In this document: positions 805-5,807 of the stretch, one piece after another
Position numbering within the stretch: position 1 is the stretch's first letter
Layout: every line of letters begins with the position of its first letter
Origin: Veillonellaceae bacterium
Lineage (GTDB): Bacteria; Bacillota; Negativicutes; Veillonellales; Negativicoccaceae
Direction: 5' to 3'
Length of the DNA: 35,105 nt
Assembly (NCBI GenBank): GCA_022771805.1
Contig: JALELM010000009.1
Span: forward strand, 1-35,105
Notes under the pieces: model-generated
Told to the model about the DNA's origin: nothing
Database searches by the model: none
Seen by the model: the letters and a program-made list of their open reading frames with translations, nothing else
Program-made: the position numbers and the translations under genes

Positions 805-833
805 TTGACAGCGGCGATCCGCTCTGTTATAAT
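805..833 (+). promoter_or_regulatory. Consensus sigma-A promoter of the serine operon
   Basis: TTGACA at 805-810 and TATAAT at 828-833 are both perfect consensus hexamers separated by exactly 17 bp. Transcription should begin near 840, immediately before the T-box leader. A strong constitutive promoter followed by a riboswitch fits control by attenuation rather than by initiation. Confidence 0.93.
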
Positions 834-1023
834 GCAGCTAACTTCAAAGGAAACGCAGTGAGGGAGAATATCCGTCGGAGACGATGCAGAGAGCAGGCGG
901 TCGGTGTGAGCCTGTACGGATACGACGAGGTTCCGCTCCGGAGCGGCAAATGATGAATTTGACGGGTGCGCCCGATAACGCGCGACTAAGATGGCCGACG
1001 GCAATTTGGGTGGCACCGCGAGT

Positions 1024-1054
1024 ACTCTCGTCCCAGCAGGATGGAGAGTTTTTT
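1024..1054 (+). terminator. T-box terminator 1
   Basis: ACTCTC at 1024-1029 pairs with GAGAGT at 1044-1049 and runs into six T residues at 1049-1054. The intervening CGTCCCA segment would instead pair with the preceding GGGTGG...CCGCG core in the antiterminator form, as in ordinary T-boxes. Confidence 0.8.
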
Positions 1055-1102
1055 GTTTATACGGATGCTTTGCCGCGGCAAGTCGGGTGGTACCGCGAGA
1101 GA

Positions 1103-1137
1103 AGAGAAGCTCGTCCCGAAGGGGCACTTCTCTTTTT
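1103..1137 (+). terminator. T-box terminator 2
   Basis: AGAGAAG at 1103-1109 pairs with CTTCTCT at 1127-1133, with GTCCC and GGGG strengthening the inner stem, followed by TTTTT to 1137. It lies 23 bases before the serC start codon, the usual position for the regulatory terminator. Confidence 0.85.
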
Positions 1138-1160
1138 GTTTTCGAAAAACGGAGGTCATT

Positions 1161-2231
1161 ATGGAACGAGTATTCAATTTTAACGCAGGGCCGGCGGCTA
1201 TGCCGGAGGACGTATTGCGGCAGGCGGCCGCGGAAATGACGGACTATCGCGGCACGGGCATGGGTGTGGCGGAGCTGTCGCACCGGTCGGCGGAGTATGA
1301 CGAACTGCATCATCGAGCGATGACGGATCTGCGCGAGTTGTTGGCGATCCCGGACGACTACGATGTATTGTTCTTGCAGGGCGGCGCCAGTCACCAATTC
1401 ATGATGGTGCCGGCAAATCTCGCCCGCGGCGGCAAGCTGGGCTATGCGGATACCGGCGTCTGGGCGCATAAGGCGATGGAAGAAGCCGGGCTGTACGGGC
1501 AGACCTACACCGTGACGAATGCGGGGCCGGACTACACGACAATCCCACCGGATTTTGCGGTTCAGGACGGTACGGATTATGTCCATATCACGACGAACAA
1601 CACCATCTACGGCACGCAGTACCGGGAGTTCCCGGATTTGGCCGTGCCGCTGGTTGCGGATATGAGCTCGGATATTCTTTCGCGGCCGGTGGATGTGCGG
1701 AAATTCGATCTGATTTACGCCGGCGCGCAGAAGAACCTCGGTCCGGCGGGGGTGACGGTGGTCATCGTGCGAAAAGAGCGACTGGCGCAGGCCAATACGC
1801 GTCTGCCCAAAATTCTGCAATACCGCACGCATGCCGCGAAGGATTCGCTGTACAATACGCCGCCGACGTATCCGATCTACCTGATGGGACTGGTCTTCAC
1901 CTGGGTGAAGAAGCAGGGCGGAGTCGCCGCCATGCAGGCGCGCAATGCGGCGAAGGCGGCGCGGCTGTATGAGGTGATCGATGCGTATCCGGAGGTATTT
2001 ACGGGGCATGCCGCCAAAGAAGCGCGGTCGCAGATGAATGTGACATTTAACTTGAAGGATCGTGCGGCGGAAGCGGACTTTATCGCCGCGGCGAAACGGG
2101 AAGGCTTTGTCGGGATCAAGGGGCATCGTCTGGTCGGCGGCTTGCGGGTATCGCTGTACAATGCGGTTACACCGGAGGCGGTCGACGCGCTTGCGGCTTG
2201 GCTGACGGCATATGCGGAACGGAAGGGATGA
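1161..2231 (+). CDS. serC: Phosphoserine aminotransferase
   Basis: SerC converts 3-phosphohydroxypyruvate and glutamate to O-phosphoserine and 2-oxoglutarate, the second step of serine synthesis, using pyridoxal phosphate. The 356-residue length is normal. The N-terminal FNAGPAAMP segment, the GGASHQF turn near residues 74-80 and the Lys191 site in AGAQKNLGPAG (the lysine that binds the cofactor) are typical. The ATG at 1161 is chosen because GGAGG at 1151 precedes it. An upstream in-frame ATG at 1041 lies inside the T-box and would remove the leader. This is the first gene of the T-box operon, and its stop at 2229-2231 is followed within a few bases by serA. Confidence 0.97.
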   Translation: MERVFNFNAGPAAMPEDVLRQAAAEMTDYRGTGMGVAELSHRSAEYDELHHRAMTDLRELLAIPDDYDVLFLQGGASHQFMMVPANLARGGKLGYADTGVWAHKAMEEAGLYGQTYTVTNAGPDYTTIPPDFAVQDGTDYVHITTNNTIYGTQYREFPDLAVPLVADMSSDILSRPVDVRKFDLIYAGAQKNLGPAGVTVVIVRKERLAQANTRLPKILQYRTHAAKDSLYNTPPTYPIYLMGLVFTWVKKQGGVAAMQARNAAKAARLYEVIDAYPEVFTGHAAKEARSQMNVTFNLKDRAAEADFIAAAKREGFVGIKGHRLVGGLRVSLYNAVTPEAVDALAAWLTAYAERKG

Positions 2232-2236
2232 AGAAA

Positions 2237-3826
2237 ATGAAGAAGAAAATACTTATAGCAGACGGTGTGTCGGAACTCGGCATTGATATTTTGCAGGAAG
2301 AATTTGAGGTAGTGGAACGGCCGCAGCTGGACAAGGAGGAATTGCTGGCAACGATCGGCGAATACGATGCGATCGTATTGCGCTCGGCAACGAAGATGAC
2401 GGCGGAAGTCATCGCCAAAGCCGACCGGCTGCAGGTGATCGGGCGAGCCGGCGTCGGCGTGGACAATATTGATATCGAGGCGGCGACGGCCAAGGGGATC
2501 ATCGTGCTGAACGCGCCGGACGGCAATACGAATGCGGCGACGGAGCATACTTTCGCGCTGATGCTGGCATTGGCGCGGCAGATCCCGCAGGCGCATGCAA
2601 GCATGGCGGCAGGACGTTGGGATCGCAAGGCCTTTCTCGGCGTGGAGCTGCGGAACCGCACACTCGGCATTCTGGGGCTGGGACGAATCGGTGCGGGTGT
2701 CGCGCTGCGGGCGCAGGCATTCGGCATGCAGATCGTCGCGTACGATCCGTTTCTGACGGCGGAGCGGGCGGAAACGCTCGGCGTACGCAAAGCGACCTTG
2801 GAGGAAGTATTGCAGGCGGCGGATTTTCTGACGTTGCATTTGCCGCTGACGGATGAAACCCGCAACCTGATCAATCGCGAGCGGCTTGCGCTGATGAAGG
2901 ACGGTGCGCGGATCATCAATGCGGCGCGCGGCGGCTGCGTGGTCATTTCGGACTTGGTGGACGCTTTGCGGAGCGGAAAACTCGCGGGGGCGGCCTTGGA
3001 TGTGTATCCGGAGGAACCGCTGACCGATGCGGACGAGCTGTTGGCTTTGCCGAATGTGGTCTTGACACCGCATCTCGGGGCATCGACGGTCGAGGCGCAG
3101 GAGGGGGTCGCGGTGGATGTCGCGCATGGGATCGTGGCGGCGCTCCATGGCGAGCCGGTTGCCGCCGCCTTGAATATGGCGCCGGTCGCACCGGAACTGT
3201 TGGCATTGCTGCAGCCGTTCTTCCCGTTGGCCACGGCCGTCGGCAATATTGCCGTCGAGCTTGCCGAAGGGCCGATTGAAGAGGTGACGATCGAATATGC
3301 CGGCGCGTTGGTCGAGTTGGATACGCGCGCATTGATGACGACGGTTCTGCAGGGGCTGCTGAACCCGATCCTTCAGGAGGCGGTGAACCATGTCAATGCA
3401 CCGGCTCTGGCGAAGGCGCGCGGGATTGTCATAAAGGAAATGAATAATTTGAACGAGGGCGATTACACGGACACGCTCACGTTGCAGGTACGCACGGCGG
3501 CAGGTACGCAACGCATCGTCGGCGCGCTGCTGGACGGGCGTCCCTATGTGGTGGCCATTGACGATTACGAGATCCGCTTTGCGCCGGAAGGGCCGCTGGT
3601 ACTGGTACCGCACGCGGATCGGCCGGGGATGATCGGCAAAATCGGCACGCTGCTCGGCGAGAACGGCATCAATATCCGCGGGATGCAGGTAGCGAATACG
3701 GCTCGGGCGGGACACAATATCATGGCGATTGCGGTCGATCGGATGCCGGCGGAGGATTTGGTCGCGGCGTTGCGGGATATCGACGGGGTCGATGCGGTAT
3801 CGACCGTGTATTTCCGGGGGATGTAA
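2237..3826 (+). CDS. serA: D-3-phosphoglycerate dehydrogenase
   Basis: SerA oxidises 3-phosphoglycerate with NAD+ and commits carbon to serine. The 529-residue length matches the long form with substrate and NAD domains, an intervening (ASB) domain and a C-terminal ACT domain. Visible landmarks are GRAGVGVDNID (69-79), the nucleotide-binding GLGRIG (147-152), Arg231 in NAARGG, and His279 in PHLGAST. The ACT domain begins near 455 (LVPHADRPGMIG), where serine feedback usually acts. The start at 2237 is preferred because GGAAGGG at 2221-2227 lies nine bases upstream. The alternative ATG at 2228 touches that site. Coupling with serC is close, and the order serC-serA is common in Firmicutes. Confidence 0.97.
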   Translation: MKKKILIADGVSELGIDILQEEFEVVERPQLDKEELLATIGEYDAIVLRSATKMTAEVIAKADRLQVIGRAGVGVDNIDIEAATAKGIIVLNAPDGNTNAATEHTFALMLALARQIPQAHASMAAGRWDRKAFLGVELRNRTLGILGLGRIGAGVALRAQAFGMQIVAYDPFLTAERAETLGVRKATLEEVLQAADFLTLHLPLTDETRNLINRERLALMKDGARIINAARGGCVVISDLVDALRSGKLAGAALDVYPEEPLTDADELLALPNVVLTPHLGASTVEAQEGVAVDVAHGIVAALHGEPVAAALNMAPVAPELLALLQPFFPLATAVGNIAVELAEGPIEEVTIEYAGALVELDTRALMTTVLQGLLNPILQEAVNHVNAPALAKARGIVIKEMNNLNEGDYTDTLTLQVRTAAGTQRIVGALLDGRPYVVAIDDYEIRFAPEGPLVLVPHADRPGMIGKIGTLLGENGINIRGMQVANTARAGHNIMAIAVDRMPAEDLVAALRDIDGVDAVSTVYFRGM

Positions 3827-3827
3827 T

Positions 3828-4463
3828 ATGGTACGGATTCTTTTGGCACGGCACGGCGAAACGAAGTGGAATTTGGAAGGGCGCTACCAGGGACAGGTGG
3901 ATACGGAGCTTTCCGACCGCGGCATTGCCCAAGGGGAACGGCTCGCCGCCGGCCTGCGCGACATCGCTTTGGATGCAGTGCTGGCCAGTCCGCTGGGACG
4001 GGCACGCAAGACGGCGGAACTTTGTGCGGCGTACCACGCTTTGCCGGTACGGACGGATGCCCGCCTGTTGGAGATCGCCCACGGCACCTGGGAAGGACGG
4101 CTGAGCGAGGATATCGCCGCCACGGACGGCGAATTGTTGCGCGCCTGGCGGGAACAGCCGGCAAGTGTCGTCATGCCGGAGGGAGAGTCGCTGCAGGACA
4201 TATTGGTACGCAGCCGGGAGGCCTTTGCGGAGTACGCGCGCACCTACGAGGGGCAGACGATACTTGTCGTCGCCCATGACGCGGTGAACAAAGTGGTCAT
4301 CACCGACCTGCTCGGCATGGATCTGAACCGTTTTTGGCAAATCAAGCAGGACAATGCCTGCGTGAACGTGCTCGAATATGACGGCGCTTGGCGGGTGGTG
4401 AACCTGAACGCGACGGCACATCTGGGCTATCTCTTTTCCGGCATCGAACAGAAAGGATTGTAA
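3828..4463 (+). CDS. Histidine phosphatase, probable phosphoserine phosphatase
   Basis: This 211-residue protein belongs to the phosphoglycerate mutase/histidine phosphatase superfamily. The catalytic RHGE is at 8-11 (His9 is phosphorylated in the family), with GRYQG at 18-22, an SPLGRAR arginine site, Glu82, His85 in AHGTWEG and the second core histidine His150 in VVAHD. It starts two bases after the serA stop, so it is an integral operon member. Serine synthesis needs a phosphoserine phosphatase and no HAD-type SerB is seen here. As I recall, the metal-independent phosphoserine phosphatase of Hydrogenobacter shares the GRYQG, HG-W-G, GES and C-terminal HLG elements (HLG here at 198-200). 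The family is certain. The substrate is inferred from operon position and motif likeness. Alternatives are a GpmB-like or alpha-ribazole phosphatase. Confidence 0.85.
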   Translation: MVRILLARHGETKWNLEGRYQGQVDTELSDRGIAQGERLAAGLRDIALDAVLASPLGRARKTAELCAAYHALPVRTDARLLEIAHGTWEGRLSEDIAATDGELLRAWREQPASVVMPEGESLQDILVRSREAFAEYARTYEGQTILVVAHDAVNKVVITDLLGMDLNRFWQIKQDNACVNVLEYDGAWRVVNLNATAHLGYLFSGIEQKGL

Positions 4464-4523: not shown

Positions 4524-5807
4524 ATGTTGGCTATGAAACGAATTCGGGAAGAGACCGAGGTGGTCCGCAATAATTTGAAGAACCGGCATCATCCGGCCGA
4601 TGTCGATGCGATTCTGGCGCTGGATCATACCCGGCGCGAGTTGCTGGCGGAAGTCGAGCAATGGAAAAAGGAACGCAACGACGCGACGAAGATCATCGCG
4701 CAGAAAAAGCGGAACGGTGAGGACGCGGCGGCGGAAATCGCGGCCATGAAGGAAAAGAGTGATGCGATCGCCGCGCATGATGCGCGCTTGCGCGAAGTGG
4801 AGGCGGAACTGGCTGCCGCCGTGCTCGAGATCCCGAATGTGACGGCGCCGGACGTACCGGTCGGTGCGGACGAAAATGACAATATCGAAGTGCGCCGTTA
4901 CGGCACGCCGCGGGAATTCGATTTTCCCGTGCAGGCACACTGGGATATCGGGGCGAAACTCGGCATTCTCGACCCGGAAACGGCGGCGAAGGTGACCGGC
5001 GCGCGCTTCCATTTCTACAAGGGGCTCGGCGCACGTTTGGAGCGCGCCGTGTACAACTTCATGCTCGACTTGCATACGGAGGAATTCGGCTTCACCGAAA
5101 TCATTCCGCCGTACATCATCAATGAAGCGAGCATGATCGGTACGGGGCAATTGCCGAAATTCGCCGAAGACATGTTCAAGCTGGAAGGCCTGCCCTACTA
5201 CCTCACGCCGACGGCGGAAGTGCCGCTGACGAACTACTATCGCGAGGAAATCATCCCGGGGGACGAATTGCCGCAGCGGTTCTGTGCGTTTACCCCCTGC
5301 TTCCGAGCGGAAGCGGGATCGGCCGGCCGGGATACGCGCGGGCTGATCCGGCAGCATCAGTTCCACAAGGTGGAAATGGTGAAATTCACCAAGCCGGAAG
5401 AGTCCTATGCGGAGCTCGAGTCCATGACGGCGGAAGCGGAAGAAATCCTGAAACGCTTGGAGATCCCGTATCGCGTCATCGTTTTGTGCACGGGTGATAT
5501 CGGTTTCTCGGCGGCGAAAACCTATGATATCGAGGTGTGGATGCCGGCGCAGAATACGTACCGGGAGATCTCGTCCTGCTCCAATTGCGAAGATTTCCAG
5601 GCGCGCCGAGCCGATATCAAATTCCGGCGGACGCCGAAGGATAAGCCGGAGTATGTACACACGTTGAACGGCTCGGGTCTGGCGGTCGGGCGAACGGTAG
5701 CCGCCATTTTGGAAAACTGCCAGCAGGCGGACGGCTCCGTCCGCATCCCGAAAGTGCTGCAACCGTACATGGGCGGTCGGGAGGTCATTCCGGCTCCGGC
5801 GGAGTGA
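4524..5807 (+). CDS. serS: Seryl-tRNA synthetase
   Basis: SerRS charges tRNA-Ser with serine and is a class II synthetase. The 427-residue protein starts with MLAMKRIRE, the usual SerRS opening, after a GAGGGAGAG site. It has the N-terminal helical arm, rich in charged residues (about 27-100), that grips the tRNA. The TPTAE motif is at 228-232, motif 2 includes [14 protein letters not shown] at 260-273, and motif 3 is in [10 protein letters not shown] near the C-terminus. It is the last gene of the T-box operon, so synthetase and serine synthesis are induced together when tRNA-Ser is uncharged. The 60-base gap after the phosphatase shows no terminator or clear promoter. Confidence 0.97.

Follow-up and report, generated by a model that had tools for sequence, protein, structure and literature searches.

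The window analyzed here is the whole stretch of 35,105 nucleotides at positions 1 to 35,105 of contig JALELM010000009.1 from a Veillonellaceae bacterium, and all of the features described below lie on its plus strand. Downstream of a T-box leader, Pfam assignments give the operon order serC-serA-phosphatase-serS, i.e., phosphoserine aminotransferase (serC, 1161..2231; PF00266, 356 amino acids), D-3-phosphoglycerate dehydrogenase with an ACT domain (serA, 2228..3826; PF02826, PF00389, PF19304, and PF01842), a phosphoglycerate mutase-like protein of the histidine-phosphatase family (3729..4463; PF00300), the true start of which is uncertain, and seryl-tRNA synthetase (serS, 4524..5807; PF00587 and PF02403). 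The leader is predicted to be transcribed from a sigma-70-type promoter (TTGACA-17-TATAAT) at 805..833, just 5' of Stem I, which matches 12 of 12 consensus bases; one such promoter was found, compared with a mean of 0.3 in shuffles. The host genome contains 11 matches to RF00230, two of which are the two parts of the serC leader.

The whole-model match of the covariance model RF00230 in the window lies at 849-1038 (89.8 bits, E 2.6e-20) and contains, in order, Stem I, the specifier, Stem III, and the antiterminator core. The match falls 3.2 bits short of the gathering score (93), which explains why a default Rfam scan is empty. Stem I (849..945; model positions 1-104) carries the AG bulge, the distal loop, and the specifier loop, and the RF00230 alignment places small hairpins at 946..987, between Stem I and Stem III. 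The likely serine specifier UCC (TCC in the DNA) was read by eye from the Rfam alignment at 932..934, and the genome encodes a tRNA-Ser with the anticodon GGA. Taken with the serine genes located 3' of it, the leader is likely a serine T-box, with alternative readings of the specifier possible.

The 5' half of Stem III, which consists of the purine string AAG..G and the 5' arm, was located at 988..997 from the aligned serC leaders, and we propose that it serves both of the modules described below. Positions 994-1002 form a 3-bp hairpin, and the 3' strand of Stem III in module 1, together with the AA dinucleotide, occupies 1000..1004, as placed by RF00230 and by alignment A1, in which 96.3% of the cells are paired. 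Core 1 (1008..1020) is an exact GGGTGGNACCGCG core within the RF00230 match, and its bulge, UGGC at 1011-1014, is a Watson-Crick match to G73 of tRNA-Ser, a base read in the four tRNA-Ser genes found. Terminator 1 with its U run follows at 1024..1054 (-13.5 kcal/mol for the folded stretch; 5 of 200 shuffles as good).

The exact GGGTGGNACCGCG core occurs again at 1085..1097, 77 bases further on, where the bulge UGGU (1088-1091) pairs with G73 of tRNA-Ser by wobble. The RF00230 match to this second core is partial, as the hit at 1080-1118 (25.7 bits, E 8e-4) is confined to model positions 183-216, and terminator 2 with its U run is found at 1099..1137 (-18.8 kcal/mol; 9 of 200 shuffles as good). 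The terminators that compete with the antiterminators are predicted to fold at 1018-1056 and 1092-1137, respectively. Since a loose core motif with two mismatches allowed gives an average of 6.3 matches in shuffles and proves little by itself, the two-core reading is based on the covariance model. Rfam shows no second Stem I in the leader, and the 64 bases between the cores are too few to hold one. The stretch 991-1138, which follows a single Stem I, contains two T-box cores and a terminator for each, in agreement with what the earlier note had described from the letters alone, and the covariance search that it had proposed over the leader matched both modules and no second Stem I. Two complete T-boxes were rejected on the latter ground.

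Vitreschak et al. reportedly described "duplicated terminator-antiterminator elements" in 2008. With one Stem I and two antiterminator/terminator modules, the serC leader has the composition of a partially tandem T-box, a known kind in which one sensing stem is likewise combined with repeated antiterminator/terminator elements, as the earlier note had mentioned for other bacteria; its mode of action is called unknown in the accessible part of a 2020 review (PMC7583486), and the source of the Stem III of the second module is not stated in that part. Fully tandem T-boxes, e.g., those of thrS and the trp operons, also have repeated terminators in one leader, but according to the available text of PMC12452182 they repeat the complete sensor and regulatory domains, whereas Stem I is single here; the 64-base gap and the missing second Stem I match rule out that arrangement for the serC leader. 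The Paenibacillus polymyxa serA T-box is similar to what is predicted here in that serine synthesis is controlled by tRNA-Ser-dependent antitermination, but it is described, in the accessible portion of PMC8002221, with one module and an AGC specifier, whereas the serC leader has two modules and a likely UCC specifier.

The partially tandem architecture is common within one bacterial class. With a pattern that requires two cores at a distance of 53-113 bases, leaders of this kind were found in 87 of 380 Negativicutes genomes (63 of 234 good-quality genomes and 42 of 102 genera), and the reversed control pattern gave 0 matches among the Negativicutes genomes. A serC gene was identified in 99 of 120 genomes; in the 30 serC loci that were read, two cores lie upstream in 14 (12 found with the search expression and 2, L241 and L242, recognized by eye from a variant core), one core in 7, and none was found in 9, one of which sits at a contig end. 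Two cores are thus present in 14 of the 21 serC loci that have a T-box core, and the suggestion that this form is rare is not borne out by the comparison of serC leaders in relatives that the earlier note itself had called for. A stricter pattern returned 68 stretches in the GTDB collection, 7 of which (L031, L035, L047, L056, L065, L071, and L076) were removed by eye as non-T-box repeats; those kept after weeding come, judged by their record titles, from Negativicutes, Bacilli, Clostridia, Chloroflexi, and a few others. After the further removal of tRNA loci (L083-L112), of leaders in which core 1 is preceded by fewer than 60 bases, and of exact duplicates, the final set contained 146 leaders with 161 downstream modules, 87 of them non-redundant. 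Two cores are present in 134 leaders, three in 9, and four in 3, at spacings of 57-109 bases, and in 137 of the 146 the Stem I motif AGAGA precedes core 1 by 115-190 bases. Gene names outside the window are putative and were read from the translations, partly on the basis of general family features.

Stem III is indispensable, and its flanking motif, 5'-RRRxG-Stem III-AA-3', contacts the antiterminator, as stated in the available part of the review (PMC7583486). An expression for the purine string, which was fitted by eye to first modules, matches 59 of 87 first modules (17.1 expected in shuffles) and 6 of 87 later modules, which is near chance (4.0 expected). In the 17 serC leaders other than the window, the string is present in 17 of 17 first modules and 0 of 17 second modules; in the window, it is seen by eye 5' of Stem III of module 1 and not before module 2. 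The AA dinucleotide is kept in both positions (74 of 87 first modules and 78 of 87 later modules). As shown by this comparison, the later modules hold the predicted 3' half of the discriminator, i.e., the 3' strand of Stem III, AA, the T-box, and the terminator, and are usually without its predicted 5' half, i.e., the purine string and the 5' arm of Stem III. We infer that they may be half-discriminators that borrow the 5' half of the first Stem III.

On reading, the strand before core 2 had seemed complementary to the first Stem III along its 5' arm and loop. This pairing was examined with an alignment-free test, in which the duplex energy of each module's own strand was compared with that of strands swapped between leaders. 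Paired with the arm and loop of its own first Stem III, the strand reaches a mean of -6.63 kcal/mol versus -4.23 kcal/mol for swapped strands (z -11.2, 0 of 5000; 87 modules). The effect persists when the swaps are stratified by the class of the downstream gene (z -9.4), in modules with less than 60% identity (n = 58, z -10.2), and outside Negativicutes (n = 26, z -8.2; others, n = 67, z -7.6). The cross energy is -5 kcal/mol or better in 60 of the 87 modules; among these 60, the 5' base of the stem is kept within two bases in 35, the pairing reaches two or more bases into the loop in 39, and the number of pairs exceeds that of the first Stem III in 46, a geometry compatible with reuse of the stem. 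In the insulator model, a mean of 12.2 cross pairs is expected for own strands versus 7.4 for swapped ones, with poor discrimination, as swapped strands give at least 3 expected cross pairs in 72% of cases. A per-locus shuffle test reaches p 0.05 in just 37 of 161 modules, and a position control is weak, with 460 of 1392 other upstream stretches pairing equally well. Taken by themselves, the small classes trpX (5) and livSBP (7) do not reach significance, and the class with a spacing of about 100 bases gives z 0.1 in the standard stretch and z -3.0 in a longer stretch that was picked after looking. In this last class (L180-L203), a matching strand is seen further upstream, and the first module seemingly has no Stem III partner of its own.

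If each module instead had a complete Stem III hairpin of its own, the match to the first arm would be a leftover of duplication, a reading that we consider unlikely. Positions 1070-1081 of the window can fold alone, and some long-spaced leaders (L024, L128, and L195) show strong local folds; nevertheless, the strand pairs with its own local upstream sequence no better than swapped strands do (-4.01 versus -4.30 kcal/mol; z +1.5, 4635 of 5000 at least as good; 87 modules), and z is still -0.2 in the 36 modules that offer more than 24 bases for it. There is also little room for such a hairpin, as the gap from the first U run to core 2 does not exceed 24 bases in 105 of 161 modules, 86 of which lack a local hairpin, and the purine string that should precede the hairpin is missing from later modules. 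A copied 3' strand would, furthermore, leave unexplained the pairing of the loop bases: the cross pairing is weakened when the loop alone is shuffled (z -6.1, 0 of 300), but this shuffle has little effect on the 3' strand of the first module, which served as the negative control (z -0.6). Cross pairing is also found in the 47 modules whose two strands are unlike (z -6.9), and this, together with the dependence on the loop, indicates that the match is more than a remnant of copying the first 3' strand. On the local pairing result, an own hairpin was rejected as a general property of later modules, and the same result, with the 6 purine strings in 87 later modules and the 88 of 200 shuffles that fold at least as well as 1070-1081, argues against the description of each core as preceded by its own short hairpin. 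The earlier interpretation thus stands for the single Stem I with two modules and lacks support for the separate hairpins and the rarity.

The shared helix is also seen in alignments. In 42 leaders of sodium:solute-symporter-like genes, 78% of the cells are paired, with 38 double-change cells compared with 15.1 (SD 3.1) in shuffles (0 of 500), and sliding of the partner lowers the pairing to 32-48%. A subset of 22 leaders has 94.2% of the cells paired, a percentage biased towards structure because the subset was chosen by register, and 12 double-change cells versus 3.3 (0 of 500). In nine serC leaders, 68.9% of the cells are paired, and the covariation score is 0.322 versus 0.212 (21 of 500). 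This covariation across classes bears on the possibility that module 2 is a decaying copy or a mere second terminator, the core of which no longer senses tRNA. Single-core serC leaders in relatives (7 of 30 loci) indicate that modules are gained and lost, and core 2 of the window makes just a wobble pair with G73; however, the helix covaries and core 2 is intact in all of the collected leaders, the latter being partly circular as the pattern search demands it, and we regard decay as improbable to about the same degree as separate hairpins. Pairing of core 1 with core 2 as an additional off state, conceivable because GGUACC is self-complementary and seen in the unconstrained RNAalifold consensus of alignment A3, in which the first Stem III is kept and the cross helix is absent, is very improbable, as the cores are nearly invariant, leaving hardly any covariation, and GGCACC of core 1 in the window pairs poorly with core 2. 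Shared Stem III pairing as a class-wide property of these leaders, predicted from the swap test and the alignments, is held firmly.

In the window itself, the strand before core 2 (1070..1084) is proposed to act as a second 3' strand of the shared Stem III, and four cross pairs are predicted for it, all of them G-C (G994-C1079, C995-G1078, C996-G1077, and G997-C1076). The estimated energy of the cross duplex is -8.6 kcal/mol versus -3.7 kcal/mol for the weak local hairpin that is also possible. Because the sequence is palindromic, the cross pairing in the window is ambiguous; it does not stand out from shuffles of this locus (z -0.1), and a register score also yields a second possible register. 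For the serC family, the evidence is mixed. The duplex energy gives z -0.8 without the window (n = 17) and z +0.6 for n = 6, whereas the register score, devised after the duplex-energy test had failed and one of two statistics tried, favors the pairing (n = 18 including the window, 13 of 20000). We consider the shared pairing through the four G-C pairs likely in the window.

Overall, the leader is probably a partially tandem class I (transcriptional) T-box for tRNA-Ser with two serial checkpoints on one Stem I and a shared Stem III, and in-series checking is its most likely function. The tRNA would dock on Stem I, and core 1 would be tested first. Past terminator 1, the strand of module 2 would base-pair to the first Stem III along its 5' arm and loop, the loop serving as a toehold from which the invading strand displaces the first 3' strand. 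Module 1 would thereby be looped out, antiterminator 2 would occupy, with respect to the docked tRNA, the position vacated by antiterminator 1, and core 2 would in turn be tested with this tRNA. If uncharged tRNA is lacking, the polymerase would have two terminators to slip past, and every polymerase would be checked twice by one sensor, which would reduce terminator leakage. In single-molecule work on glyQS, fully bound uncharged tRNA is reported to stay for more than 24 s (PMC6197855, available part), which suffices for the polymerase to get past a second module approximately 75 bases on. A tentative extension, which we would not quite expect to hold, is a relay in which one docked tRNA is handed from antiterminator 1 to antiterminator 2, and to as many as four, via repeated invasion of the Stem III loop, giving serial proofreading without a second tRNA capture.

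The present analysis adds to the known architecture the putative sharing of the 5' half of the first Stem III among modules; a literature search that missed the likeliest sources recognized no description of tandem T-boxes that share or exchange a Stem III. A shared Stem III with a swapped 3' strand would be a concrete, mutable answer to how partially tandem T-boxes act, and it would explain how a second module can work despite missing the half of the discriminator that is needed in the T-boxes studied so far. If true, a switch would here be reset naturally by toehold strand displacement. The current family model sees the tandem of the window as a sub-threshold match plus a fragment.

Further observations concern other leaders in the collection. 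The host genome has a second partially tandem T-box (L001 and L013; G000:C1:66444-66517), and the gene 3' of it resembles those for TrpX-type binding proteins of ABC transporters. In the serC leaders L227, L230, L234, and L241, the first core is GGTGGCAACGCG rather than GGTGGCACCGCG, and the second core has ACC. In many symporter leaders (L135, L137, and similar ones), terminator 1 seemingly uses the T-box core as its 5' arm, with GTGGTACCG pairing with CGGTATCGC before a T run. In the three-core leaders L072 and L133, the match to the Stem III arm covers more bases for the third strand than for the second, a pattern that resembles step-by-step displacement. The Lysinibacillus leaders L061, L068, and L073 have four cores in a row at a spacing of 88-89 bases, and each is followed by a sodium-dependent transporter-like gene.
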